Assembly: GCF_000382285.1 (NCBI RefSeq)
Contig: NZ_KB907952.1
Location: 1 to 33,549 of the forward strand
Source: Solimonas variicoloris DSM 15731
Lineage (GTDB): Bacteria; Pseudomonadota; Gammaproteobacteria; Nevskiales; Nevskiaceae
Direction: 5' to 3'
DNA length: 33,549 nt
Part shown: positions 10,684 through 33,549 of the stretch, piece after piece
How the letters are laid out: every line of letters starts with the position of its first letter
Numbering within the stretch: position 1 is the first letter of the stretch
The notes under the pieces: generated by a model
The model's input: only the letters and a program-made list of their open reading frames with translations
Database searches by the model: none
Told to the model about the DNA's origin: nothing
Position numbers and translations under genes: made by a program

Positions 10684-12429
10684 TCAGGGAGTGTCGTCCT
10701 GCAGGAACTGCGCGAACGCCGCCGCGGCGAGCGTGGCGTCGTCGGCGCTGAGGCTTTCTTCGGGGTTGTGGCTGACGCCGCCGGCACCGCAGCGCACGAA
10801 CAGCATGCCGATCCCGGTCAGCGTCGCCATCATCATCGCGTCGTGACCGGCACCGCTCGGCAGATAGCGGCTTTGCGCGGCGCCGGTGACGGCGCGGATC
10901 GCCGCGTCGAGGCGTCGCTGCAGCGCCGGCGCGCAGGGCGTGGCGTCGGCGTGCACGATCTCCTCGTATTCGATGCGCAGCCTGCGCCGCGCCGCGATCG
11001 CCGCGATCTCGGCCAGCACCGCATCGACCGCGGCGTCGCGCGTCGCGTCGCTCGGCGCGCGAATGTCGATGCTCAGTTCGCAGCGGCCCGGCACCACGTT
11101 GACGGCACCGTCCGGCACCTCAAGACGGCCGACGGTACCGACCAGACCCGGCGTGCCGCTGCACAGGCGCTCGACGGCGAGCACGATCTCGGCGGCGCCG
11201 GCGGCGGCGTCCTGGCGCAGATACATCGGCACCGTGCCGGCATGTCCGGCGCGGCCGCGGATCGCGACGCGGAAGCGGCGGCTGCCGGCGATCGCGGTGA
11301 CAACGCCGAGCGCAAGGTTCTCGTCGAGCAGCACCGGTCCCTGCTCGATATGCACCTCGACGTAGCCGCACAGCTGCGCCGGATCGCGCGCCAGCGCCGC
11401 GATCCGCGCCGGATCGTGGCCGGCGCCGCGCAGCGCCTCGGCGAGCGTGACGCCGGCGGCGTCGGTGCGCTGCAGCAGCGCCGGATCGAAGCGCCCGGCG
11501 ACCGCACTGCTGCCGAGGAAGGTGGACTTGAAGCGCACGCCCTCCTCTTCGGCGAAGCCGATGATCTCCAGATCGAACGGCAGCGCCACGCCGCGGCGGC
11601 GCAGCAGGCCGGCGACGACGATCGGCAGCAGGATGCCGAGCCGGCCGTCGTAGCGGCCGGCGTCGGTGACGGTGTCGTAATGCGAGCCGCTGATCAGCGT
11701 CCTGGCGCCCGGCGCGGCGCTGACCCAGCGGCCGACGACATTGCCGACGTCGTCGATGTGCGCGTCGAGCCCGGCCTGCAGCATCCAGTCGCGCAGCTTG
11801 CGCGCCGCGGCCTGATGGGCGGCGGACAGATAGGTGCAGCACAGCGCGTCGTCGCGCTCGCTGTAGCGGGCCAGCGCGTCGGCCATCGCCAGGATCTCGG
11901 GCCCGGCCGCCGCCAGATCATCGATGGCGAAGCGCTCGGCGAGCCGGAAGTCGGCAATGCGCGCGATCTCGACCAGCGCCGTGTGCAGCTCGGCCTCGGC
12001 CTCGTGCGCGAGACGGCGGCTCAGCTCGACGACGATGTCGGCGCGCTGCCGGCCCTTGACCGAAATCACGAACGGAAAACCGAACTTCTCGCGGTAGGCG
12101 GCATTGAGCGCCTGCAGCTCGCCGAGCGCGTCGGCCGGCGCCTGCGTCAGCCCTGCGCCGGCCTGCTCCGAGGTCGAAGCCGCGGTCAGCTCGCCGCGCA
12201 TCGCCGCGCTGCCGGCCAGCTCGGGGTGCGCGCGAACCAGCGCCAGCTGCGCCTCGCGCGGCGCGTCGAACATCGTCGCGCACAGCGCGTCGAGCAGCGC
12301 GAAGCGCGTCGCGAACGGGCGCCGCGCGGCGGTCTGCTCGGCGATCCACGGCGAGTGCTCGAAGATGCCGTCGAGCGCCGCGACGAACGCCGGCAGCGGA
12401 CAGCGGTTGAGAACGTCGAGATCGATCAT
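10684..12429 (-). CDS. uraD/allC: OHCU decarboxylase / allantoate amidohydrolase fusion
   Basis: A 581-residue bifunctional enzyme. Residues 1-165 are an OHCU decarboxylase (UraD) making S-allantoin: H68 in RAHPEL, E88 in TSEQ, R162 in ADFRL and the FGFPF segment are all present. Residues about 175-581 are an allantoate amidohydrolase of family M20: GSHYDTV and GRYDGRLG for metals, EEEGVRF, EVHIEQGP, GRAGHAGTVPM, SGAGHDAMM and GGVSHNPEES. The fusion joins two steps that are not adjacent, because PuuE acts between them; the puuE gene is immediately upstream with an ATGA overlap, so all three activities are made together. ATG 12429 is the only sensible start. Both active sites look intact. Confidence 0.93.
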   Translation of the reverse strand: MIDLDVLNRCPLPAFVAALDGIFEHSPWIAEQTAARRPFATRFALLDALCATMFDAPREAQLALVRAHPELAGSAAMRGELTAASTSEQAGAGLTQAPADALGELQALNAAYREKFGFPFVISVKGRQRADIVVELSRRLAHEAEAELHTALVEIARIADFRLAERFAIDDLAAAGPEILAMADALARYSERDDALCCTYLSAAHQAAARKLRDWMLQAGLDAHIDDVGNVVGRWVSAAPGARTLISGSHYDTVTDAGRYDGRLGILLPIVVAGLLRRRGVALPFDLEIIGFAEEEGVRFKSTFLGSSAVAGRFDPALLQRTDAAGVTLAEALRGAGHDPARIAALARDPAQLCGYVEVHIEQGPVLLDENLALGVVTAIAGSRRFRVAIRGRAGHAGTVPMYLRQDAAAGAAEIVLAVERLCSGTPGLVGTVGRLEVPDGAVNVVPGRCELSIDIRAPSDATRDAAVDAVLAEIAAIAARRRLRIEYEEIVHADATPCAPALQRRLDAAIRAVTGAAQSRYLPSGAGHDAMMMATLTGIGMLFVRCGAGGVSHNPEESLSADDATLAAAAFAQFLQDDTP

Positions 12430-15463: not shown

Positions 15464-16672
15464 TCATTGCGGCGCTCCGCGGTCGATCCAGTCGAGCACG
15501 GACTGCCGCTCGGCGTCCGTCATCTGCGTCAGGTTGCCGAGCGGCATGGTTTTGGCCAGCAGCTGCTGGCGCATCGTCGTCAGGTGCTGCTGCAGATGCT
15601 CGGGCGTTTCCAGCATCACGCCCTTGGGCGGCGCGACGAAGCCGGCGAAGCTCGGGTGCTCGGCATGGCAGCCGGCGCAGCGCTGCGCGACAATCGCCTC
15701 GACCTGCGCGAACGGCGGCGCCGCGGCCGCGCCGGCGGTGGCGGCGGCCGGCGCCGGGCGCAGCAGCACGATCACCGCGGCGATCGCCGCCAGGCCCAGC
15801 AGCGCCGGCCACAGCGGCGTGCGGCCGCCGCGCTCGTGCGCCTTGTGGCGCATCACGAACCAGGCGCGGATCGCGGCGCCGGCCAGCGCCAGGCCGATCA
15901 GCGCCAGCACCTTGTGCTCGGAGCCGTAGGTCGAGGCGTAGTGGTTGCTGATCATCGTGAACAGCACCGGCAGCGTGAAATAGGTGTTGTGCACCGAGCG
16001 CTGCTTGCCGCGCGCGCCGTCGCGCGGATCGGGCTCGCGGCCCTCGCGCATCGCCGCGACCGAGCGGCGCTGGCCGGGAATGATCACGAAGAACACGTTG
16101 GCGACCATCATCGTGCCGAGCAGCGCGCCGAAGTGGATGTACGCGCCGCGGCCGCTGAACACCGCGCACAGGCCCCAGGCGGCAAGACCGAGCAGCACCG
16201 CGAGCACCGCGGCCAGCGCGCGCTCGTTGCGGCCCAGCGGCGAACGGCAGAGGCCGTCGTAGACCAGCCAGCCGCCGGCCAGCGTGGCGAGGCCGATCGC
16301 GATCGCCTGCCACGGCGCCAGCGCCAGCACCGCGGGGTCGATCAGGTACAGCGTCGGCGCGCCGTAGTACAGCACGCAGAGCAGGAAGAAGCCGGTCAGC
16401 CAGGTGCTGTACGCCTCCCAGTAGAACCAGTGCAGCTGCGCCGGCAGCTGCGCCGGCGCGACGCGATATTTCTGCGAGTGGTAGAAGCCGCCGCCGTGCA
16501 CCGCCCACAGCTCGCCGGCGACGCCGCGCCGCGCCGCGGCCGGATCGGCCGGCGTCAGCAGATGGTTGTCGAGCCAGACGAAGTAGAACGACGCGCCGAT
16601 CCAGGCGATGCCGACGATCACGTGCGCCCAGCGTCCGATCAGGTTCAGCCATTCGAGCAGATAGGCTTCCAT
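15464..16672 (-). CDS. puuD: Membrane urate oxidase PuuD with C-terminal cytochrome c domain
   Basis: A 402-residue integral-membrane urate hydroxylase/oxidase. It oxidises urate to 5-hydroxyisourate and passes electrons to its own cytochrome c rather than to oxygen directly. The N-terminal region has about eight hydrophobic helices (first WAHVIVGIAWIGASFYFVW; HGGGFYHSQKY at 59-69 and SVHNTYFTLPVLFTMISNHY at 226-245 are family segments). The C-terminal domain carries the haem motif CAGCH (332-336) with M376 as likely axial ligand. It follows the ABC permease genes by 16 bases. Being in the respiratory membrane, it couples urate use to electron transport. Start ATG 16672. Length is typical. 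Confidence 0.93.
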   Translation of the reverse strand: MEAYLLEWLNLIGRWAHVIVGIAWIGASFYFVWLDNHLLTPADPAAARRGVAGELWAVHGGGFYHSQKYRVAPAQLPAQLHWFYWEAYSTWLTGFFLLCVLYYGAPTLYLIDPAVLALAPWQAIAIGLATLAGGWLVYDGLCRSPLGRNERALAAVLAVLLGLAAWGLCAVFSGRGAYIHFGALLGTMMVANVFFVIIPGQRRSVAAMREGREPDPRDGARGKQRSVHNTYFTLPVLFTMISNHYASTYGSEHKVLALIGLALAGAAIRAWFVMRHKAHERGGRTPLWPALLGLAAIAAVIVLLRPAPAAATAGAAAAPPFAQVEAIVAQRCAGCHAEHPSFAGFVAPPKGVMLETPEHLQQHLTTMRQQLLAKTMPLGNLTQMTDAERQSVLDWIDRGAPQ

Positions 16673-20192: not shown

Positions 20193-21271
20193 GGCGCGGG
20201 CTTCCGGCAGCCGGCGCAGTCGCGAGCCGCATCGCCGGCGCAATCCTCGGGCGCCGCCTTGCGCGGCGGCGGCTCCGGCAGCGTGTCGAGCAGCTGCGCG
20301 GCGATGCTGACGGCGATCGCCGCCGGCCACTTGCTGCGCGACGCGCCGAGGCCAACCGGACAGGTCAGGCGCGCGATGCGCGCGGCATCGACGCCGTCGC
20401 GCGCGAGCCGCGAGCGGAAGCGCGCCGCCTTGCTCTTCGAGCCGATCAGGCCGGCGAAGGCGAAGTCGTCGCGCGCCAGCAGCGCGCGGCACAGCTGGTA
20501 ATCGAGTTCGTGATCGTGCGTCATCACCAGGAAACGGGTGCCGGCCGGCGCCTGCGCGACGGTCTCGAGCGGATCGCGCGGCACCAGCACGCGGGTGCCG
20601 CCGGGCAGCATCGGCGGGAACAGTTCGGCGCGCGCGTCGATCCAGGTCAGGCGCAGCGGCAGCTCGGCGACGATGCGCGCCAGCGCCTGACCGACGTGGC
20701 CGGCGCCGTACAGCCACAGCGGCGCACCGCTGGCCAGCCGTTCGCGCAGTTCGACGCCGTCGGCGAGGCGCGTCAGCGTCGCGGCGCCGGCGTCGTTGGC
20801 GGCGACGCCCTGCCAGTCGCGCTGCACGGCGCCGCGCTGCAGGCGGCTGCGCAGTTCGAGCGCCGGCTGTTCGTGCAGCGCCAGCGCCAGATCGTCGAGC
20901 CAGGCGATGTCGTCGGCGTCGTAGCGTTCCAGCCACAGCTCGACGACGCCGCCACAGCACTGGCCCAGCTCGGTGCCGAGCACGTAGCGCTGCAGGCGCG
21001 CCTGCGGCGTGCGCGGCGCGTCGAGCAGCGCGCGCGCCGCCTGCAGCGCCTGCCATTCGAGATGGCCGCCGCCGATCGTGCCGAGCAGCGCGTCGGCGCC
21101 GACCAGCATGCAGGCGCCCGGCTCGCGCGGCGCCGAACCGCGCACCACCGCGACCACCACGCGCACGCACGGGCCCTGGCGGCGCAGCAGCGCGGCGGCG
21201 GCGCGCGGCCAGTCGCCGAGCGCCAGCAGCGTCAGCGTCGACGACAGCTCCGAGCGGGCGAGCGCGCTCAT
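20189..21271 (-). CDS. xdhC: XdhC, molybdenum-cofactor chaperone of xanthine dehydrogenase
   Basis: A 360-residue XdhC-family accessory protein that binds molybdenum cofactor, supports its sulfuration and inserts it into XdhB. The N-terminal domain has VVVAVVRGSAPREPGA, the conserved GTIGGGHLEWQA and a GQCCGG segment. The C-terminal Rossmann domain starts at LWLYGAGHVGQALA and contains MTHDHELD and FAGLIGSKSKAARF. The tail is Pro/Cys-rich (CAGDAARDCAGC), slightly longer than usual and of unknown purpose. Start ATG 21271 overlaps the xdhB stop. Confidence 0.93.
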   Translation of the reverse strand: MSALARSELSSTLTLLALGDWPRAAAALLRRQGPCVRVVVAVVRGSAPREPGACMLVGADALLGTIGGGHLEWQALQAARALLDAPRTPQARLQRYVLGTELGQCCGGVVELWLERYDADDIAWLDDLALALHEQPALELRSRLQRGAVQRDWQGVAANDAGAATLTRLADGVELRERLASGAPLWLYGAGHVGQALARIVAELPLRLTWIDARAELFPPMLPGGTRVLVPRDPLETVAQAPAGTRFLVMTHDHELDYQLCRALLARDDFAFAGLIGSKSKAARFRSRLARDGVDAARIARLTCPVGLGASRSKWPAAIAVSIAAQLLDTLPEPPPRKAAPEDCAGDAARDCAGCRKPAP

Positions 21272-23610
21272 GCGGCCCAGGCCTCGCCGCGCAGGCGCGC
21301 GACCGCGCGCAGCACGGCCTCGGGCGTCGCCGGCGCCGGCAGCTCGACCGGCTGTCCCGGCGTGCCGCAGGCGGCGACCGCGTCGCGGATCGCGTGGTAG
21401 ACCGACATGCCGAGCATCAGCGGCGGCTCGCCGACCGCCTTCGAGCGATGGATGCTGGCCTCGCGGTTCGGCAGTTCGAGCAGGCGCACCGTGGTGCGCG
21501 CGGCCCAGTCGTAGGCGGTCGGAATCTTGTAGGTCGACGGCGCGTGCGTCTTCAGCTCGCCGCGCGCGTTCCACCACAGCTCCTCGGACGTCAGCCAGCC
21601 GACGCCCTGCAGGAAGCCGCCCTCAACCTGGCCGCGGTCGATCGCCGGATTCAGCGAGCGGCCGGCGTCGTGCAGGATGTCGGCGCGCAACAGCTTCGTC
21701 TCGCCGGTCAGCGTGTCGATCGCGACCTCGGCGACGGCGGCACCGTACGCGTAGTAATAGAACGGCCGGCCGTGCAGACGCTCGCGGTCCCAGTGGATCT
21801 TCGGCGTGCGGTAGAAACCGGTCGCCGACAGCGGCACGCGCGCGAAATAGGCCTGCTGCACGAGCTGCTGGAAGCTCATGTGCTGCGCGCCGGCGCTGAC
21901 CGTGCCGGCCGCGAAGCGCACCGCGTCGGCGTCGACGCCCCAGTTTGCCGCCGCCAGCCGCGCGAGGCGGCGGCGGATGCGGCGCGCCGCGTGCTGCGCG
22001 GCCTTGCCGTTCAGGTCCGAGCCGCTCGACGCGGCGGTCGCCGAGGTGTTCGGCACCTTGCTGGTGTCGGTGGCGCTGACGCGGATCGCCGTCAGCGGCA
22101 GGCCGAGTTCCTGCGCGACCACCTGCTGGACCTTGGTGTAGAGGCCCTGCCCCATCTCGGTTCCGCCGTGATTGAGCAGCACGGTGCCGTCGCTGTAGAC
22201 GTGCAGCAGCGCGCCGGCCTGGTTGTAGTGCGTGGCGTTGAACGAGATGCCGAACTTCACCGGCGTCAGCGCCAGGCCGCGCTTGACGACCGGGCTGGCG
22301 GCATTCCACTCGGCGATCGCCGCGCGGCGCTGCCAGTATTCGGCATCGGCTTCGAGGCGGCCGGTGATCTCGTGCAGCACGTTGTCCTCGACGCGCTGCC
22401 CGTACGGCGTCGTGTCGCGCTCGCCGATGCCGTAGAAATTCAGCTTGCGCACGTCGAGCGGGTCGCGGCCGAGCGCGCGGGCGATGTCGTCGACGATCTT
22501 CTCGATCACCATCATGCCCTGCGGACCGCCGAAGCCGCGGAACGCGGTGTTCGACACGGTGTGGGTCTTGCAGCGGTGCGAGACGACCTCGACGTGTTCG
22601 AGGAAGTAGGCGTTGTCGATATGGCACAGCGCGCGGTCGTTGACCGGGCCGGACAGATCGGCCGAGTAGCCGCAGCGCGAAGCGATCATCAATTTGAGCG
22701 CGCGAATGCGGCCGTCGGCGTCGAAGCCGACGTCGTAGTCGGCGATGAAGTCGTGGCGCTTGCCGGTCGCCAGCATGTCGACGTCGCGGTCGAGGCGCAG
22801 CTTCACGGCGCGGCCGGTCTTGCGCGCGAGGATCGCCGCCGCCGCCGCGATCAGCGCCGGCTGGCTTTCCTTGCCGCCGAAGCCGCCGCCCATGCGCCGG
22901 CACTGCACGACGACGTCGTGCGCGTGCACGCCGAGCGCGTGCGCGACGATGTGCTGGACCTCGGTCGGATGCTGCGTCGAGCTGATGATCTGCACCGCGC
23001 CGCCTTCCTGCGGCAGCGCGATCGCGATCTGGCCTTCGAGATAGAAGTGATCCTGGCCGCCGATCGCGGCGCTGCCGCGCAGGCGCCGCGGCGCCGCTTC
23101 GAGCGCCGCCTCCGGCTCGCCGCGCCGCATCGTGCGCGTCGGGATCACGAAGCTCTGCGCGGCGATCGCGTCGCGCGTGTCGAGGATCGCCGGCAGATCC
23201 TCGTACTCGATCTTCGCCGCGCGCACCGCGCGGCGCGCCGCCTCGTAGCTGGTCGCCGCGACCGCGAAGATCGGCTGGCCGGCGTACTGCACGAGCGCGT
23301 CGGTGAAGATCGGGTCGTCCTGCAGGATGCCGCCGTAGTTGTTGTCGCCGGGCACGTCGGCCGGCGTGGCGACGGCGATCACGCCGGGCTGCGCGAGCAC
23401 CGCCGACAGGTCGAGCGCGGTGATCGTCGCGTGCGCGCGCGTCGACAGCCCGAACGCCGCGTGCAGGGCGTTGCCCGGCAGCGGCAGATCGTCGGCATAC
23501 GGCGCGCGGCCGGCGACGTGCAGATGCGCGCTCTCGTGCCGCGTCGCGACGCCGACCGCCGGACCGATCGCGTCGCCGCTCATTTCGCTGTCCTTCGCGG
23601 CCGCGCTCAT
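21268..23610 (-). CDS. xdhB: Xanthine dehydrogenase molybdopterin-binding large subunit
   Basis: A 780-residue large subunit that hydroxylates hypoxanthine to xanthine and xanthine to urate. Seen: the N-terminal ald_xan domain (HVAGRAPYADDLPLPGN), GGQDHFYLEGQ for substrate contact, MGGGFGGKES for cofactor binding, NTAFRGFGGPQGM with the substrate Arg, NHGGTEMGQGL, TSATAASSGSDLNG and VGEPPLML with the catalytic Glu. Everything expected for an active enzyme is present. Start ATG 23610 overlaps the xdhA stop as ATGA; an alternative Met nine residues later cannot be excluded. Confidence 0.95.
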   Translation of the reverse strand: MSAAAKDSEMSGDAIGPAVGVATRHESAHLHVAGRAPYADDLPLPGNALHAAFGLSTRAHATITALDLSAVLAQPGVIAVATPADVPGDNNYGGILQDDPIFTDALVQYAGQPIFAVAATSYEAARRAVRAAKIEYEDLPAILDTRDAIAAQSFVIPTRTMRRGEPEAALEAAPRRLRGSAAIGGQDHFYLEGQIAIALPQEGGAVQIISSTQHPTEVQHIVAHALGVHAHDVVVQCRRMGGGFGGKESQPALIAAAAAILARKTGRAVKLRLDRDVDMLATGKRHDFIADYDVGFDADGRIRALKLMIASRCGYSADLSGPVNDRALCHIDNAYFLEHVEVVSHRCKTHTVSNTAFRGFGGPQGMMVIEKIVDDIARALGRDPLDVRKLNFYGIGERDTTPYGQRVEDNVLHEITGRLEADAEYWQRRAAIAEWNAASPVVKRGLALTPVKFGISFNATHYNQAGALLHVYSDGTVLLNHGGTEMGQGLYTKVQQVVAQELGLPLTAIRVSATDTSKVPNTSATAASSGSDLNGKAAQHAARRIRRRLARLAAANWGVDADAVRFAAGTVSAGAQHMSFQQLVQQAYFARVPLSATGFYRTPKIHWDRERLHGRPFYYYAYGAAVAEVAIDTLTGETKLLRADILHDAGRSLNPAIDRGQVEGGFLQGVGWLTSEELWWNARGELKTHAPSTYKIPTAYDWAARTTVRLLELPNREASIHRSKAVGEPPLMLGMSVYHAIRDAVAACGTPGQPVELPAPATPEAVLRAVARLRGEAWAA

Positions 23611-25064
23611 GCGTCCAGCTCCGACAGGCGCAGCACCGCGCCGCCGCGCAACTCCAGCGCGTAGCGGCGCAGCAGGTTGCCGGCGGTCTGCAGACGGTAG
23701 GCGCCGCTGGCGCGCATGTCGCTGAGCGGCTGGAAGTCCTCTGCCAGCGCCACCACCGCGGCCTCGAGCGCGGCCTCGTCCCAGACACGGCCGCGCAGCA
23801 CGGCCTCGGTCTTCGCGGCGCGCCTGGGCGTCGCCGCCATGCCGCCGTAGGCAAGGCGCAGATCGGCGACGCGGCCGTGTTCGAGCTTGAGCGCGAACGC
23901 GGCGCAGACCGCCGAGATGTCCTGGTCGTAGCGCTTGGCGAGCTTGTAGCTGGCCAGCCGCCAGCCGTCCGCCAGCGGCGGCACGATCAGCGCGGCGACG
24001 AACTCGCCAGGCTGCAGCGCCTTCTTCTGGTAGCCGAGATAGAACTGGTCGAGCGGCAGGCGCCGCGTGCGCTCGCCGTGGCGCAGCTCGACGCTGGCGC
24101 CGAGCGCGAGCAGCGCCGGCATCGAATCGCCGATCGGCGAACCGTTGGCGACGTTGCCGACCAGCGTGCCGGAGTTGCACACCGGCGGCGAAGCGAAGCG
24201 CCGCGCCAGTTCGGCGAGCGGCGGATGACGGGCGACCAACGCCGGCCAGGCCTCGGCGAGCAGCACGGCGGCGCCGATGCGCAGGCCGTCGGCGCCGTCC
24301 TCGATGGTGCGCAGTTCGGCGACCTCGCCGACATAGATCAGCGGCGGCAGCTCGCGCAGGTGCTTGGTGACCCAGAGCCCGACGTCGGTGCCGCCGGCGA
24401 GCAACAGCGACTGCGGCGCCGCCGCGTAGCGCGCCGCCAGCTCATCGACGCTGCGCGGCGCGCAGAAGCCCGGCAGCTCCAGCGTCGTCTCGCGGCGCAG
24501 GCCGTCGAGCGCGGCCGCCCATTCGGCGTCGCGCGACGGCGGCGGCGGGTAAGCGCCCATGTGCAGGCCGGCGTCGATGATCGGCCGGTAGCCGGTGCAG
24601 CGGCACAGGTTGCCGGCGAGCGCGTCGACCACCGTCGCCCGCGCCGGCGCGGTTTCGCGTGCGTACAGCGCGTACAGCGACATCACGAAGCCCGGCGTGC
24701 AGAAACCGCACTGCGAGCCGTGGTGATCGACCATCGCCTGCTGCACCGGATGCAGCGTGCCGTCGGCATCGGCCAGGCCGTCGGCGCTGAGCACGGCCTT
24801 GCCGTCGACCGTCGCCAGGAAGCGGATGCAGCTGTTGATCGCGCGGTAGCGCAGGCCGCCGCGGCCATCGGGCTCGCCGAGCGCGACCGTGCAGGCGCCG
24901 CAGTCGCCCTCGGCGCAGCCTTCCTTGACCGCCGTGCAGCCCGCGTCCTCGCGCAGAAACTGCAGCAGCGTGCGGGTCGGCGCCGGCGCGTGCGCCTCGA
25001 CGACCTTGCCGTCGAGCAGGAAGCGGACCGTCGCCTCAGCGAAACGTGAATCCTGGGTGGGCAT
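23607..25064 (-). CDS. xdhA: Xanthine dehydrogenase small subunit (2Fe-2S and FAD)
   Basis: A 485-residue small subunit that carries electrons from molybdenum to NAD. The plant-type 2Fe-2S cluster uses C50, C55, C58 and C79 (KEGCAEGDCGACT). The second cluster uses C119, C122, C154 and C156 (QCGFCTPGF and NLCRCTGYRP). The FAD domain (about 195-370) has LLAGGTDVGLWVTK and GNVANGSPIGDSMPALLAL, and the C-terminal CODH-type domain follows. ATG 25064 shares its A with the uraH stop (TGATG), so translation is probably coupled. Confidence 0.95.
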   Translation of the reverse strand: MPTQDSRFAEATVRFLLDGKVVEAHAPAPTRTLLQFLREDAGCTAVKEGCAEGDCGACTVALGEPDGRGGLRYRAINSCIRFLATVDGKAVLSADGLADADGTLHPVQQAMVDHHGSQCGFCTPGFVMSLYALYARETAPARATVVDALAGNLCRCTGYRPIIDAGLHMGAYPPPPSRDAEWAAALDGLRRETTLELPGFCAPRSVDELAARYAAAPQSLLLAGGTDVGLWVTKHLRELPPLIYVGEVAELRTIEDGADGLRIGAAVLLAEAWPALVARHPPLAELARRFASPPVCNSGTLVGNVANGSPIGDSMPALLALGASVELRHGERTRRLPLDQFYLGYQKKALQPGEFVAALIVPPLADGWRLASYKLAKRYDQDISAVCAAFALKLEHGRVADLRLAYGGMAATPRRAAKTEAVLRGRVWDEAALEAAVVALAEDFQPLSDMRASGAYRLQTAGNLLRRYALELRGGAVLRLSELDA

Positions 25065-28171: not shown

Positions 28172-28396
28172 ATGCACGATCGAAGCCCCATCAACGACGC
28201 CACCGACCTCGGCCTCGCCATCCGCGCCGCCCGCAAGCGGCAGCGGCTCACGCTGGCGCTCTGCGCCGCGGCCAATGGCGTCAGCGTGCGTTTCCTGTCG
28301 GAGCTGGAGCGCGGCAAGCCCGGCGCTTCCGTCGGCACTGCGCTGCGGATCGCGCGCTCGGTCGGCCTGCGACTGTCCGTCGAGGTCATCGACTGA
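28172..28396 (+). CDS. hipB: HipB-like antitoxin/repressor (XRE helix-turn-helix)
   Basis: A 74-residue protein with one helix-turn-helix domain (about 12-70: LGLAIRAARKRQRLTLALCA, VSVRFLSELERGK, GTALRIARSVGLRLS). As HipB it would repress its own operon at the three upstream palindromes and neutralise HipA. ATG 28172 follows GGGAAAGAG. Its stop TGA shares one base with the hipA start (TGATG), which keeps production coupled. It is short but of normal size for HipB. Confidence 0.85.
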   Translation: MHDRSPINDATDLGLAIRAARKRQRLTLALCAAANGVSVRFLSELERGKPGASVGTALRIARSVGLRLSVEVID

Positions 28397-29664
28397 TGCC
28401 CGGCCGGCTCTGGGTCTTCCTGTCCGGACAGCGCGTCGGAACGCTGGACGAACGCCACGGCAGGCTGTCGTTCACCTACGAAGCCGGCGCTCACGCGCCC
28501 TTGTCGGTGCGGCTGCCGCTGCGCGCCGAGCCTTACGACGACGCGTCCTGCCGCAGCTTCTTCGACAACCTGCTGCCCGAAGGCAGCTGGCGGCAGTCGA
28601 TCTGCCGCCAGCTGCGCATCGACGAGCGCGACGATTTCCGCCTGCTGGCGGCGATCGGCGCCGAATGCGCCGGTGCCGTCTCGCTGCATGCCGACCCGGC
28701 ATGGACACCGGTACGGGGCGTCTACCGGCCGACGACGGAAGTCGAGCTGCGCCGCTGGGTGCTGAATCCCGCGGCGCGCCCGGCACTGCAGAGCAGCCCC
28801 GGCCTGCGGCTGTCGCTGGCCGGGGCGCAGGACAAGCTGCTGCTGCATTTCGACGGCCAGACCCCTTGCCTGTGCGAGGGCGGCGCGCCCAGCACCGTCA
28901 TCCTCAAGCCCGACATCCACGATCCGGCCAACGCGATCGAACTCAGCGCGTTCAACGAACGGCTCAGCGTGTGTCTCGCCCGGCAATGCGGCATCGATGC
29001 GGTCGACGCGTTCTGGTACGCGGGCGCCTATGCCGTGCACCGCTACGACCGCGTGCTGCGTCCCGACGGCTGGCAGCGTCTGCACCAGGAAGACTTCGCG
29101 CAGATCGCCGGCGTGCCCGCCGTCGCCAAGTACGAGGAGCACGGCGGGCCGGGCTGGCAGCAGTGCTTCGCGATCGTCGACGACTGGATCGCGGCGCCGG
29201 CGGCATCCCGCCTACAGCTGCTGCAACGCCTGTTCTTCAATCTGTGCCTCGGCAATAACGACGCCCACGCGAAGAATTTCGCACTGCTGCACGAGCTCGA
29301 CGGCCGCCGTCCGCGTCTGGCCCCGGCCTATGACCTGCTGTGCACGCAGGTTTACGGACCGCTATCAAAGACCATGGCCATGGCGATCGGCGGCGAAGCA
29401 GATCCGACGCGGCTGAACCGCGCAGCCTGGGCGCAGTTCGCCAAAACCAGCGGCTTCACCATCACGATCCTGCAGCGCTTCGCGGCGCAGATGGCGGCGC
29501 AGGTCGCCAAGGCCCTGCCCGATCTGCTCGCGCGGACCGAGGCCGCCCATCCTGCGCTCAAATCGGATCTCTATCCCGCACGTCGCCGGCTCGCGTTCTT
29601 CCGCCGCTATGCTGCCACGGTCGCCGGCAACGGCGAGCGCCTGGCGGCCTCGTTCGCCGCGTGA
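28396..29664 (+). CDS. hipA: HipA-like serine/threonine kinase toxin
   Basis: A 422-residue HipA-family kinase. The N-terminal HipA_N domain (about 5-105) includes FFDNLLPEGSW. The kinase domain has LSLAGAQDKLLL, with S140 in the place of the autophosphorylated P-loop Ser of E. coli HipA, then VILKPD (nucleotide-binding Lys), YAVHRYDR, HQEDFAQ, the catalytic NNDAHAKNF (D289, N294) and LAPAYDLL with the metal Asp D313. All needed residues are present, so it is probably active. E. coli HipA phosphorylates glutamyl-tRNA synthetase and slows growth; the target here is unknown. The gene has no link to purine metabolism and may be a mobile passenger, though no transposon is seen. Confidence 0.88.
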   Translation: MPGRLWVFLSGQRVGTLDERHGRLSFTYEAGAHAPLSVRLPLRAEPYDDASCRSFFDNLLPEGSWRQSICRQLRIDERDDFRLLAAIGAECAGAVSLHADPAWTPVRGVYRPTTEVELRRWVLNPAARPALQSSPGLRLSLAGAQDKLLLHFDGQTPCLCEGGAPSTVILKPDIHDPANAIELSAFNERLSVCLARQCGIDAVDAFWYAGAYAVHRYDRVLRPDGWQRLHQEDFAQIAGVPAVAKYEEHGGPGWQQCFAIVDDWIAAPAASRLQLLQRLFFNLCLGNNDAHAKNFALLHELDGRRPRLAPAYDLLCTQVYGPLSKTMAMAIGGEADPTRLNRAAWAQFAKTSGFTITILQRFAAQMAAQVAKALPDLLARTEAAHPALKSDLYPARRRLAFFRRYAATVAGNGERLAASFAA

Positions 29665-29700: not shown

Positions 29701-31602
29701 TCAGGCCGCCGGCGCGAAGCGGATCTCGCGCGCGGCATCGATCGGGTTGGCGTCGGCGACGAGATCGTTGAAACGGTAACTGGCGATGCGCGCCGCCTCG
29801 ACGACGCCGGCGGCACGCTCGACGGCCGGCGAGTTGGCGAGTCGCTCCCGGCCCTGCGCGAGCACGCGCTCGTAGCGCTCGACCTCGCGCGCGCAGACCA
29901 CCAGCGGGAAGCCGAAATGGCGGCGGTAGGCCTGCGCCAGCTCGCGCACCTCGTGATGCGCGTCCTCGCCGAGCGTGCCGAGCCCGGCGGCGTCGTGATC
30001 GAGGATGTAGGCATTGCCGGCGTCGGCCTCGCTGCCGAGGTCGGCGTAGGCGTTCAGCAGCGCGAGCTGCTGCGCCGTGTCGCCGGCCAGCAGCGCCTCG
30101 CCGAACGCCGCGCGCAGCGCGCGCGTATCGGCGTACGGGCGCTGCGCCCAGGCCCGCTCCAGGACCCAGGGCACATGCTCGACGAGGCCACCGAAGGTGC
30201 GCGCGAACGCGTCGTACGACATCGCGTTGACCTGCTCGAGCATGACGAGCCCATGCTCCGGCCGCCCGGCGACGGCGGCGTGCGCGCCGCCGACGTGGTG
30301 GAACAGCGCGTTGAGCAGGATCGCGGTGAGCGCGCCGAGCGTGATGCCGCTGCCGAAGATGATCTGCGCCCAGTCCGGCACGCCGGTCGCCACGAAGGGC
30401 TGTGCGGTGACGAGCATGGCCAGGCCGAGGCTGGTGCCGACGATGACGAGATTGCGGTGATCGTTGAAGTCGACCTTGGCCAGCGTCTGGATGCCGACCA
30501 CGGCGACCGCCGCGAACATCGCCAGCGCGGCGCCGCCGAGCACCGGATGCGGAATGCCGGCGACGATCGCCGCCGCCTTGGGCATCGAGCCGAGGATCAG
30601 CATGATGACGCCGGCCGCGCAGACCACCCAGCGGCTCTTGACCTGCGTCAGGCGCACCAGGCCGACGTTCTCTGCGTAGCAGGTGTACGGAAACGAATTG
30701 AGCACGCCGCCGAGCATCGTCGCCAGGCCGTCGGCGCGCAGCGTGCGCGCGATGTCCTCGCGGCGGATGCGCTTGCGCACGATTTCGCCGGTCGCGTAGA
30801 CGTCGCCGGTGCTCTCGACCATGGTGATCAGCATGACGACGATCATCGACAGGATCGCGGTGACGCTGAAGCTCGGCCAGCCGAAGTAGAACGGCAGCGT
30901 GTAGCCGAGCGGCGCCGCGCTCTCGACCGCGTCGAAGTGCGCGTCGCCGAGCAGCCACGCGACCAGCGTGCCGGCGACCAGACCGGCGAGCACCGCGATC
31001 GTGGCCATGAAGCCGCGGAAGAAGCGCTGGATCGCGACGATCAGCGCCAGCGTGCCAAACGCGTACAGCAGGTTCTTCAGCAGCACCGGATTCTGGATCG
31101 CGTTCGGGCCGCGGCCCATGACGACGTCGTTGGCGGCGACCGGCAGCAGACCGATGCCGATGATGAGGATCACCGTGCCGGTGACGACCGGCGGAAAGAA
31201 GCGCGCGAGCCGCGCGAAGTACGGCGCCGCGAAGAACGCGAACAGGCCGCCGGCGAGCACGGCGCCGTAGATCGACGCCAGCCCCGCGCTGCCGCCGCCG
31301 GCGGCAAGGCCGATGCTGATCATCGGCCCGACCGCGGTGAAGGTCACGCCCTGCAGCAGCGGCAGGCGCACGCCGATCTTCGGGCCGAGACCGACCGACT
31401 GGATGATCGAGGCGATGCCGCAGGTGAACAGATCGGCGTTGATCAGGTGGATCAGCTGCCCGGTCGACAGACCCAGACCGCCGGCGACGAGGATCGGCAC
31501 CAGCACCGCGCCGGCATAGAACGCCAGCACGTGCTGCAGGCCGTAGGCCGCCAGCTTCGGCAGCGGCAGAACCTCGTCGACCGGATGGATGCGCGCGTTC
31601 AT
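29701..31602 (-). CDS. NCS2 urate/xanthine permease fused to an OHCU-decarboxylase-like domain
   Basis: A 633-residue protein. Residues 15-437 are an NCS2 (nucleobase-cation symporter 2) permease with about 14 membrane segments: QGVTFTAVGPM (84-94), ESTGD (263-267) and NSFPYTCYAENVGLVRLT (302-319) place it with urate/xanthine transporters. Residues about 453-616 form a cytoplasmic OHCU-decarboxylase-like domain: MSYDAFARTFGGLVEHVPWV, YRRHFGFPLVV and ARIASYR with R610. The catalytic His, H68 in the intact enzyme at 10684-12429, is replaced by Y519 in NAYADL, and the catalytic Glu has no clear match (perhaps D535). The domain is therefore probably not a decarboxylase and may sense or bind an intermediate. 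Start ATG 31602. It is probably co-transcribed with the cupin_5 gene 27 bases upstream. Confidence 0.88.
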   Translation of the reverse strand: MNARIHPVDEVLPLPKLAAYGLQHVLAFYAGAVLVPILVAGGLGLSTGQLIHLINADLFTCGIASIIQSVGLGPKIGVRLPLLQGVTFTAVGPMISIGLAAGGGSAGLASIYGAVLAGGLFAFFAAPYFARLARFFPPVVTGTVILIIGIGLLPVAANDVVMGRGPNAIQNPVLLKNLLYAFGTLALIVAIQRFFRGFMATIAVLAGLVAGTLVAWLLGDAHFDAVESAAPLGYTLPFYFGWPSFSVTAILSMIVVMLITMVESTGDVYATGEIVRKRIRREDIARTLRADGLATMLGGVLNSFPYTCYAENVGLVRLTQVKSRWVVCAAGVIMLILGSMPKAAAIVAGIPHPVLGGAALAMFAAVAVVGIQTLAKVDFNDHRNLVIVGTSLGLAMLVTAQPFVATGVPDWAQIIFGSGITLGALTAILLNALFHHVGGAHAAVAGRPEHGLVMLEQVNAMSYDAFARTFGGLVEHVPWVLERAWAQRPYADTRALRAAFGEALLAGDTAQQLALLNAYADLGSEADAGNAYILDHDAAGLGTLGEDAHHEVRELAQAYRRHFGFPLVVCAREVERYERVLAQGRERLANSPAVERAAGVVEAARIASYRFNDLVADANPIDAAREIRFAPAA

Positions 31603-31629: not shown

Positions 31630-32480
31630 TCAGGGCGCCTTCTGGATGTCGACCTCGATGCCGGCGTCGCGGGCGACGCCGCGCAGGCGCTGCAGCAGCG
31701 CGTCCGGCGCGCCGCGTTCGACGCGGATGTGCAGCGGTCGCGACGGTCCGGCGCCGGCGTGCTTGCGGATCTCGATCGCCGCCTGCTGCTCGGTCAGCTG
31801 CAGCCCGGCCCAGAGAATCTGCCCCTGCGCGTCGAGCACCAGCGACAGGTCCTGGCCTTCGGCGCCGAGCACCTGGCCGAAGTTCGGACCGATCAGCGCG
31901 CGCAGGAACGCCGGCGTCGCCCACGCGGCCTTGCCCGCGTAGCGCTCGATGAACGCGGCGTCGCCGCCGATGCGCTCGCGGCCCGGACTCCAGGCCGGCG
32001 TCAGCACCGAGCCGACCAGCAGGTACGGCGCCTCCGGCCGCAGCACGATGGCCTTGGCGGCGCCGGCCGGCACCGGCACGAACGGCGTCTGGCCGTGCGC
32101 GACGTCGCGGCCCATCACGTAGTGCGCAACGCTGCCGTCGGCGAGGAACAGGTAGTAGTCGGCCGGGCCGCCCTCGATCAGCGACTGGTAGTCGTCCGAG
32201 TACAGCCAGTGCAGATGGTTCTGCGGCGAGGCCGGCGTCAGCATGAAATAGATCGCGTTGCTGGCCGGCGAACGGCCGTCGCCGGCCGTGACTTCGAGAT
32301 CCGAAACGCGCAGCACGCGGAACAGGCCCGCCTCGCCGTTCAGGGGCACCAGGCCGAGCCGCTCGATCAGCTCGTCGCGGCGCGCGTCGGCCGCGACCGA
32401 CGGCGCCGCGGCCGAGGCCGCCATCGCCGCCGGCGCGGCGCACAGCGCCGCGGCGAAGAGGACTTTGCGCAGCGCCCGCC

Positions 32481-32484
<4 letters not shown>
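31630..32484 (-). CDS. Exported cupin_5 (DUF985) protein with ExbD-like C-terminus
   Basis: A 284-residue protein. I start it at GTG 32484, which overlaps the NUP stop as GTGA and gives a clean signal peptide (1-22, ending AAPAAMA). Residues about 36-190 match the DUF985/cupin_5 fold: DELIERLGLVPL, SNAIYFMLTP, LHWLYSDDYQS, YYLFLADGS, FVPVPAGA and YLLVGSVLTPAWSP. Residues about 212-281 (LVLDAQGQILWAGLQL, RPLHIRVERGAPDALLQRLR, ARDAGIEVDI) resemble the periplasmic domain of ExbD/TolR. No membrane helix lies between them. DUF985 proteins have no settled function; small-molecule binding is likely for cupins. Gene order NUP, cupin_5, urate permease suggests a purine ligand. The ExbD likeness is a pattern judgement and less certain. 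Confidence 0.75.

Positions 32485-33549
<1,065 letters not shown>

Follow-up and report, generated by a model that had tools for sequence, protein, structure and literature searches.

In Solimonas variicoloris DSM 15731, a single reading frame encodes an NCS2 purine permease that continues into a relative of the urate-pathway enzyme UraD (OHCU decarboxylase), and the catalytic histidine of UraD is missing from this tail as it is from every fusion of the kind sampled. The fused domains form one clade, are under purifying selection as judged from dN/dS, and are retained in many genomes in which the urate pathway was not found. The tail is probably a cytosolic module without catalysis through which the carrier is stabilised or gated, by analogy with the STAS domain on SLC26 transporters. 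The window analysed here is the whole 33,549-nucleotide stretch of contig NZ_KB907952.1, for which a sequence-only reading was already at hand.

A fused permease gene in a purine-catabolism island

The fusion gene starts with an ATG at position 31602 and its product of 633 aa is encoded in a single frame (Table 1); coding on the plus strand was considered for this interval and rejected, as the gene reads on the minus strand. The Pfam family Xan_ur_permease covers residues 17-402 (E 4e-101), and OHCU_decarbox (PF09349) covers residues 459-612 (E 7e-34) over the full length of its model (1-155), passing the Pfam cut-off (118 vs 24). Against the NCBIfam models, the permease part scores 490.5 bits with TIGR03173 (pbuX; curated cut-off 414.15), and the tail scores 93.7 bits with the UraD model TIGR03164, slightly below its curated cut-off of 96.25. 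The permease that carries the domain looks intact, and by family is predicted to be of the xanthine/urate type; its residues 311-320 read ENVGLVRLTQ, which we take to be the NAT-type motif. No STAS domain is present among the Pfam matches of the protein.

An AlphaFold2 model of residues 440-633 (mean pLDDT 90, pTM 0.85) was matched by Foldseek to zebrafish UraD (2o70_A) with a TM-score of 0.85 by target, an rmsd of 2.2 Å and 27% identity, and each of the 14 structures found at E <= 0.001 is a UraD protein or includes a UraD domain. The full-length model is of a single chain (mean pLDDT 83, pTM 0.66), with no predicted interface between domain and permease, and its Foldseek matches begin with UapA (5i6c), UraA (8omz/5xls) and the vitamin C carriers, with SLC26 and SLC4 later, among others. 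The whole permease domain and its fold are common to the fusion and to NCS2/NAT permeases (TIGR03173 pbuX; UapA 5i6c, UraA 3qe7), but among the NCS2 chains of solved structure that were listed, every match is confined to the permease part and none extends to the tail. The earlier description of an NCS2 permease running in frame into a UraD-like domain is borne out by the domain models and fold matches, and structure prediction of the tail region, which had been proposed as a check, finds the UraD fold retained.

The window is a purine-catabolism island which, besides the genes in Table 1, codes for an amidohydrolase, a nucleoside hydrolase and a polysaccharide-deacetylase-type protein; we infer the first of these to be guanine deaminase and the last PuuE. 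PF09349 has only two matches in this genome, namely the fusion tail and the UraD domain joined to an allantoate amidohydrolase. The latter protein, which is PRK13799-like, likewise couples UraD to a purine-pathway protein, but its UraD domain is N-terminal on an enzyme and has the His, the Glu and the Arg. The window does therefore hold an intact UraD, as had been claimed, and the fused copy is redundant with it. Two other reading frames lie close to the fusion: one for a HipA-type protein with HipA N and C domains (28396-29664, plus strand), placed between the purine genes on the opposite strand, and one directly upstream on the same strand (31630-33393, minus) with a Cupin_5 (DUF985) part at approximately 31987-32373.

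Table 1. Features of the window, with positions counted from its first nucleotide.
Feature	Position	Strand	Basis
NCS2 permease and UraD-like (pseudo-OHCU decarboxylase) fusion	29701..31602	-	translation, Pfam, NCBIfam, AlphaFold2 model
NCS2/SLC23 permease part, residues 1-435	30298..31602	-	TIGR03173 pbuX score, Foldseek
Pseudo-UraD domain, residues 459-612	29767..30228	-	PF09349, model, Foldseek
Tyr519 codon, position of catalytic His67 (zebrafish numbering)	30046..30048	-	alignment
Asp535 codon, position of Glu87	29998..30000	-	alignment
Arg610 codon, retained pocket Arg161	29773..29775	-	alignment
UraD with His, Glu and Arg fused to allantoate amidohydrolase-type M20 peptidase	10684..12429	-	Pfam, NCBIfam, alignment
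PuuD-type membrane urate oxidase with cytochrome c-like tail	15464..16672	-	PF06181 E 2.2e-130
Xanthine dehydrogenase molybdenum-binding subunit (ORF probably includes a non-coding 5' extension)	21268..24180	-	MoCoBD_1, MoCoBD_2, Ald_Xan_dh_C
Purine nucleoside permease (NUP), close to the fusion gene and co-oriented with it	32481..33455	-	PF06516 E 1.7e-114

Active-site positions of the fused domain

His67, Glu87 and Arg161 have catalytic roles in UraD, known from crystal-structure work. The sequence-only reading had placed Tyr519 at the catalytic His and had held the conserved Arg to be kept, and alignment to zebrafish UraD agrees on both points. It had also stated that the Glu is not matched; the Glu is indeed absent, but the position is aligned and is better given as a change from Glu to Asp535. 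Compared with UraD (PF09349, TIGR03164; PDB 2o70, 3o7h), the fusion tails share the fold, Arg161, the FGFP loop and most structural residues, but have Tyr or Phe for the His, mostly Asp for the Glu, and Ser84, Gln88 and Asn108 mostly altered; they also sit behind a permease and have an Asn-Pro near the C end.

Position 67 is Phe in 39 and Tyr in 35 of 74 distinct NCS2-UraD fusions and His in none, whereas His, Pro68, Glu87, Gln88, Asn108 and Arg161 are all present in 94/94 UraD domains not fused to NCS2. This comparison drops UraD matches of fewer than about 120 model positions (among them the broken gene of L097 and Streptomyces-like paralogs that have no His-Glu segment), duplicates, and, in a fixed list of loci, fusion fragments truncated at locus ends. 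A smaller alignment gives Phe 38, Tyr 25 and His 0 among 63 fusions, against His in 34/34 other UraD sequences. Misalignment of the His was considered and rejected, the 63 fusions showing no gap in the 15 residues around it. In Corynebacterium this position is Tyr in 40/40 fusion frames, a count that takes in one frame of a broken gene and two (L209, L211) from genomes sampled before. Whether the His is always lost in proteins combining NCS2 with OHCU_decarbox had been raised as a check, and within the sample it is (His in 0/74, and in 0/40 from Corynebacterium); no His-bearing fusion was found among those sampled across the Actinomycetota, Pseudomonadota and Corynebacterium sets.

The Glu87 position is occupied by Asp in 64 of the 74 fusions, by Phe in six and by Glu in four, and in the 40 Corynebacterium frames by Asp (25), Ala (6), Phe (4), Glu (3), Asn (1) or a gap (1), although this column is less secure, as six Corynebacterium rows with Phe have an insertion directly after it. 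Arg161 and Pro118 are present in 74/74 fusions, and Tyr111 and Phe115 in 73/74 each. Other residues are conserved in the fusions and not in the enzymes: Pro620 (63/63), Asn619 (58/62), Gly584 (62/63) and Arg497 (60/63), counted with the piece from L097 excluded. With the His found in none of the 74 fusions, the tail is a conserved UraD relative, very probably without catalysis, in keeping with the earlier suggestion of a probably inactive domain.

Distribution, descent and selection

The same fusion occurs in two other genomes of the genus (G002 and G004; tail identity 94% and 82% over 194 aa) and, in a scan of genome contigs, in Solimonas flava, S. marina and many other genera; the scan patterns represent the permease end, and divergent fusions are missed. 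An assembly or frame error was rejected as unlikely, since the fusion recurs in many genomes. From 396 Actinomycetota genomes, 20 regions were read; not counting G110, on which the search was centred, 11 genomes yielded 12 fusion genes, in a set that left out four matching frames of at least 600 aa (G364, G394, G404, G414) and three of 500-599 aa (G216, G326, G356). The matches listed for 397 Pseudomonadota genomes extend down to approximately E 5e-44, a range from which no fusion rate can be derived. Both families are already in domain databases, and a plasmid record labels one NCS2-UraD fusion 'solute carrier family 23 protein'; in the open literature, a body that excludes most subscription journals, we found neither the fusion nor the loss of its active site described.

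Of 75 fusion genes, 26 have an intact UraD domain in the same orientation whose start falls anywhere from 51 bp before the fusion frame ends to 105 bp beyond it; in Rhodococcus, for instance, the fusion and the adjoining intact UraD are followed by uraH and uricase. Several other arrangements were observed. L060 resembles these 26 loci but falls outside the distance limit. L166, L167 and L168 have another NCS2 permease, without a tail, after the fusion, together with an intact UraD overlapping its end. In Acetobacter and Gluconobacter (L088-L096, L100) a short distance separates an intact standalone uraD from the unfused NCS2 permease that comes after it. The fusion gene is broken into several frames in L097 (Arcanobacterium pluranimalium) and L240 (G973), where decay or sequencing error is possible. 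Some Actinomycetota loci (L191, L192, L195, L196, L197 and the shorter L193), mostly from large genomes, encode a second UraD-like protein of approximately 200 aa without the His-Glu segment, in L196 inside a longer frame; judged by its sequence, this protein is a separate dead UraD paralog.

In a UraD tree of 96 rows, in which the window's domain is present twice, the 39 fused rows form one clade (100/98), and in a tree which includes the early-branching fusions the 41 fused domains again form one clade (SH-aLRT 99, by a quick method). The fused clade is joined (96) with a set of intact UraDs: those encoded next to or close by the fusions of L166-L169 and L173-L175, plus zebrafish UraD on a long branch. 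Near-duplicates were thinned for the UraD and permease trees. Proteobacterial fused domains are nested among actinobacterial ones in both UraD trees, and this position suggests that the fusion moved from Actinomycetota into Proteobacteria, a direction that would fit the nesting. The early-branching fusions (L166-L175, L068, L177) have Tyr at position 67, Glu (four genes) or Asp at 87 and Gln or Arg at 88, and keep Ser84 and Asn108 or Thr; most later fusions have Phe or Tyr together with Asp, and Ser84, Gln88 and Asn108 replaced. The His was therefore the first residue to be lost, because the early branches without it still hold most of the pocket.

The permease tree (67 rows, SH-aLRT only) requires four changes of fusion state, and places L169, L174 and L175 apart, beside unfused permeases. 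Unfused permeases are also nested among fused ones, in Austwickia (L101), a gammaproteobacterial MAG (L102) and five Acetobacteraceae rows. These are best read as later losses of the domain, although more than one joining would also be possible; since some nested permeases go without it, the domain is not indispensable. For the dead domain, dN/dS ranges over 0.06-0.22 in ten pairs and 0.03-0.37 in 12 further pairs, compared with 0.05-0.26 in eight pairs of intact UraD. In the window's genus, the values are 0.14, 0.22 and 0.22 for the dead domain and 0.13, 0.26 and 0.22 for intact UraD. On these values the fused dead domain is under purifying selection, although in 18/22 pairs its dN/dS exceeds that of the permease to which it is joined.

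Coupling to the urate pathway and the role of the tail

The fusion tracks the urate pathway only loosely. A search of 49 genomes found 32 with the fusion and another UraD, 14 with the fusion alone, one with a broken fusion (L097), one with a standalone UraD only and one with neither. No other UraD is present in 14 of the 47 fusion genomes, and all 14 also lack HIU hydrolase and uricase, a share that is overstated because 49 of 65 loci were taken and the 16 omitted were mostly Gordonia and Williamsia with an adjoining intact uraD. In 38 of these genomes, HIU hydrolase is present in 21 of the 22 with another or standalone UraD and in none of the 16 without; uricase, of the urate oxidase type searched, is found in seven of the 38, none of them fusion-only.

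Across 151 Corynebacterium genomes, 45 have a fusion-length frame, one a frame at a contig edge (L258) and one a broken gene (G973), all 47 sequences having been checked. Standalone UraD is found in 15 of the 151 and HIU hydrolase in the identical 15 (Fisher, p = 6e-21), and the standalone gene from each of them has the His; L256, L257, L259 and L260 carry a second standalone UraD type, AHPVLG, besides AHPPIG. HIU hydrolase is found in ten of the 46 genomes with unbroken or contig-edge fusions, and 36/46 have neither standalone UraD nor HIU hydrolase. The fusion is commoner where HIU hydrolase is present (9/45 vs 6/106, p = 0.014, with 45 fusions used); both p values are too small owing to related species, the genome counts being phylogenetically non-independent. 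C. glutamicum, one of the control genomes, has a PF09349 match, which may be the fusion, and does not match PF00576 or PF01014. PF09349 matches on NCS2 proteins should not be annotated as OHCU decarboxylase, nor taken as evidence of urate breakdown. The history can be read unusually well here: the ancestral enzyme is known together with its active-site residues and the pathway it serves, intermediate stages of loss persist in living genomes, and the dead domain is retained in many lineages from which the pathway is absent. Conversion of a metabolic enzyme into a transporter part thereby becomes testable.

Because the domain is kept in many genomes without the urate pathway, sensing of a pathway intermediate and tethering of urate-processing enzymes, two of the roles offered by the sequence-only reading, are not supported as general ones (14/47 fusion genomes and 36/46 Corynebacterium ones lack the pathway); in genomes that have the pathway, that of the window among them, either could still operate. 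With urate decarboxylation and pathway tethering argued against as the general role, a role for the permease itself remains, and gating (the third role offered) or stabilising the transporter is the reading that we prefer by analogy.

NCS2 carriers function as dimers. A UraD domain is dimeric in its crystal (PMC2834698), and SLC26 carriers combine the 7+7 fold of SLC23 with an additional, regulatory STAS domain (PMC6497670). SLC26/SulP proteins with a C-terminal STAS domain are like the fusion in joining an added domain to a 7+7 membrane fold, but the tail of the fusion has the UraD fold and not that of STAS, and the likeness is in plan rather than in tail ancestry. On the preferred reading, a permease gene would have fused with an adjacent uraD copy in an actinobacterial urate operon, the catalytic His would have been lost at fusion or soon after, and the fusion would later have been transferred into Proteobacteria, including Solimonas. 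The dead UraD domain would then serve as an accessory module of the NCS2 purine permease, presumably on the cytosolic side, where a UraD-fold dimer may be placed beneath the carrier like a cap and may stabilise or gate it.

A pseudoenzyme domain carried by a transporter is a candidate for an allosteric site, and a bolder account, tentative and in our view rather unlikely, is that the protein is a transporter-receptor whose dead pocket would bind a purine or ureide without turnover and report cytosolic purine status to the carrier. The allosteric site would then derive from a killed pathway enzyme, specific at first for a pathway compound and later serving the permease only; if so, the early-branching pockets with Tyr, Ser, Glu/Asp and Asn would represent the stage of specificity. 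Ligand sensing by the remnant pocket, in which Arg610, the FGFP loop and the Tyr or Phe in place of the His bind urate, xanthine, allantoin or OHCU and gate the permease, is the most interesting rival and an unlikely one. It draws on the near-invariance of Arg161, Pro118, Tyr111 and Phe115, and on the early fusions, which lost the His first and hold Ser84, Asn108 or Thr, and Glu/Asp87. Against it, Ser84, Gln88 and Asn108 are altered in most later members, the Glu/Asp position has become Ala, Phe or Asn in some Corynebacterium frames, and the domain persists in genomes without HIU hydrolase or another UraD, where a pathway intermediate is unlikely to be the ligand.

That the dead domain is a membrane tether, which pairs with an intact UraD or another urate enzyme and channels imported urate to it, is decidedly improbable: the intact UraD that overlaps or adjoins the fusion end in 26/75 genes and the crystal dimer of a UraD domain (PMC2834698) are consistent with such pairing, but many fusion genomes have no other UraD with which to pair, and the window's intact UraD is itself fused to an amidohydrolase. 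Continued enzyme activity, with Tyr or Phe and the Asp sustaining decarboxylation or a new reaction, might be read from the frequent Asp and the invariant Arg, but is hardly credible given that every one of the 94 other UraD domains has the His and that Phe, found in 39/74 fusions, is incapable of acid-base chemistry. A passive relic without function, to which the permeases lacking the domain and the gene broken in two genomes might point, is very improbable in view of a dN/dS well below 1 in 22/22 pairs and of residues invariant across two phyla.
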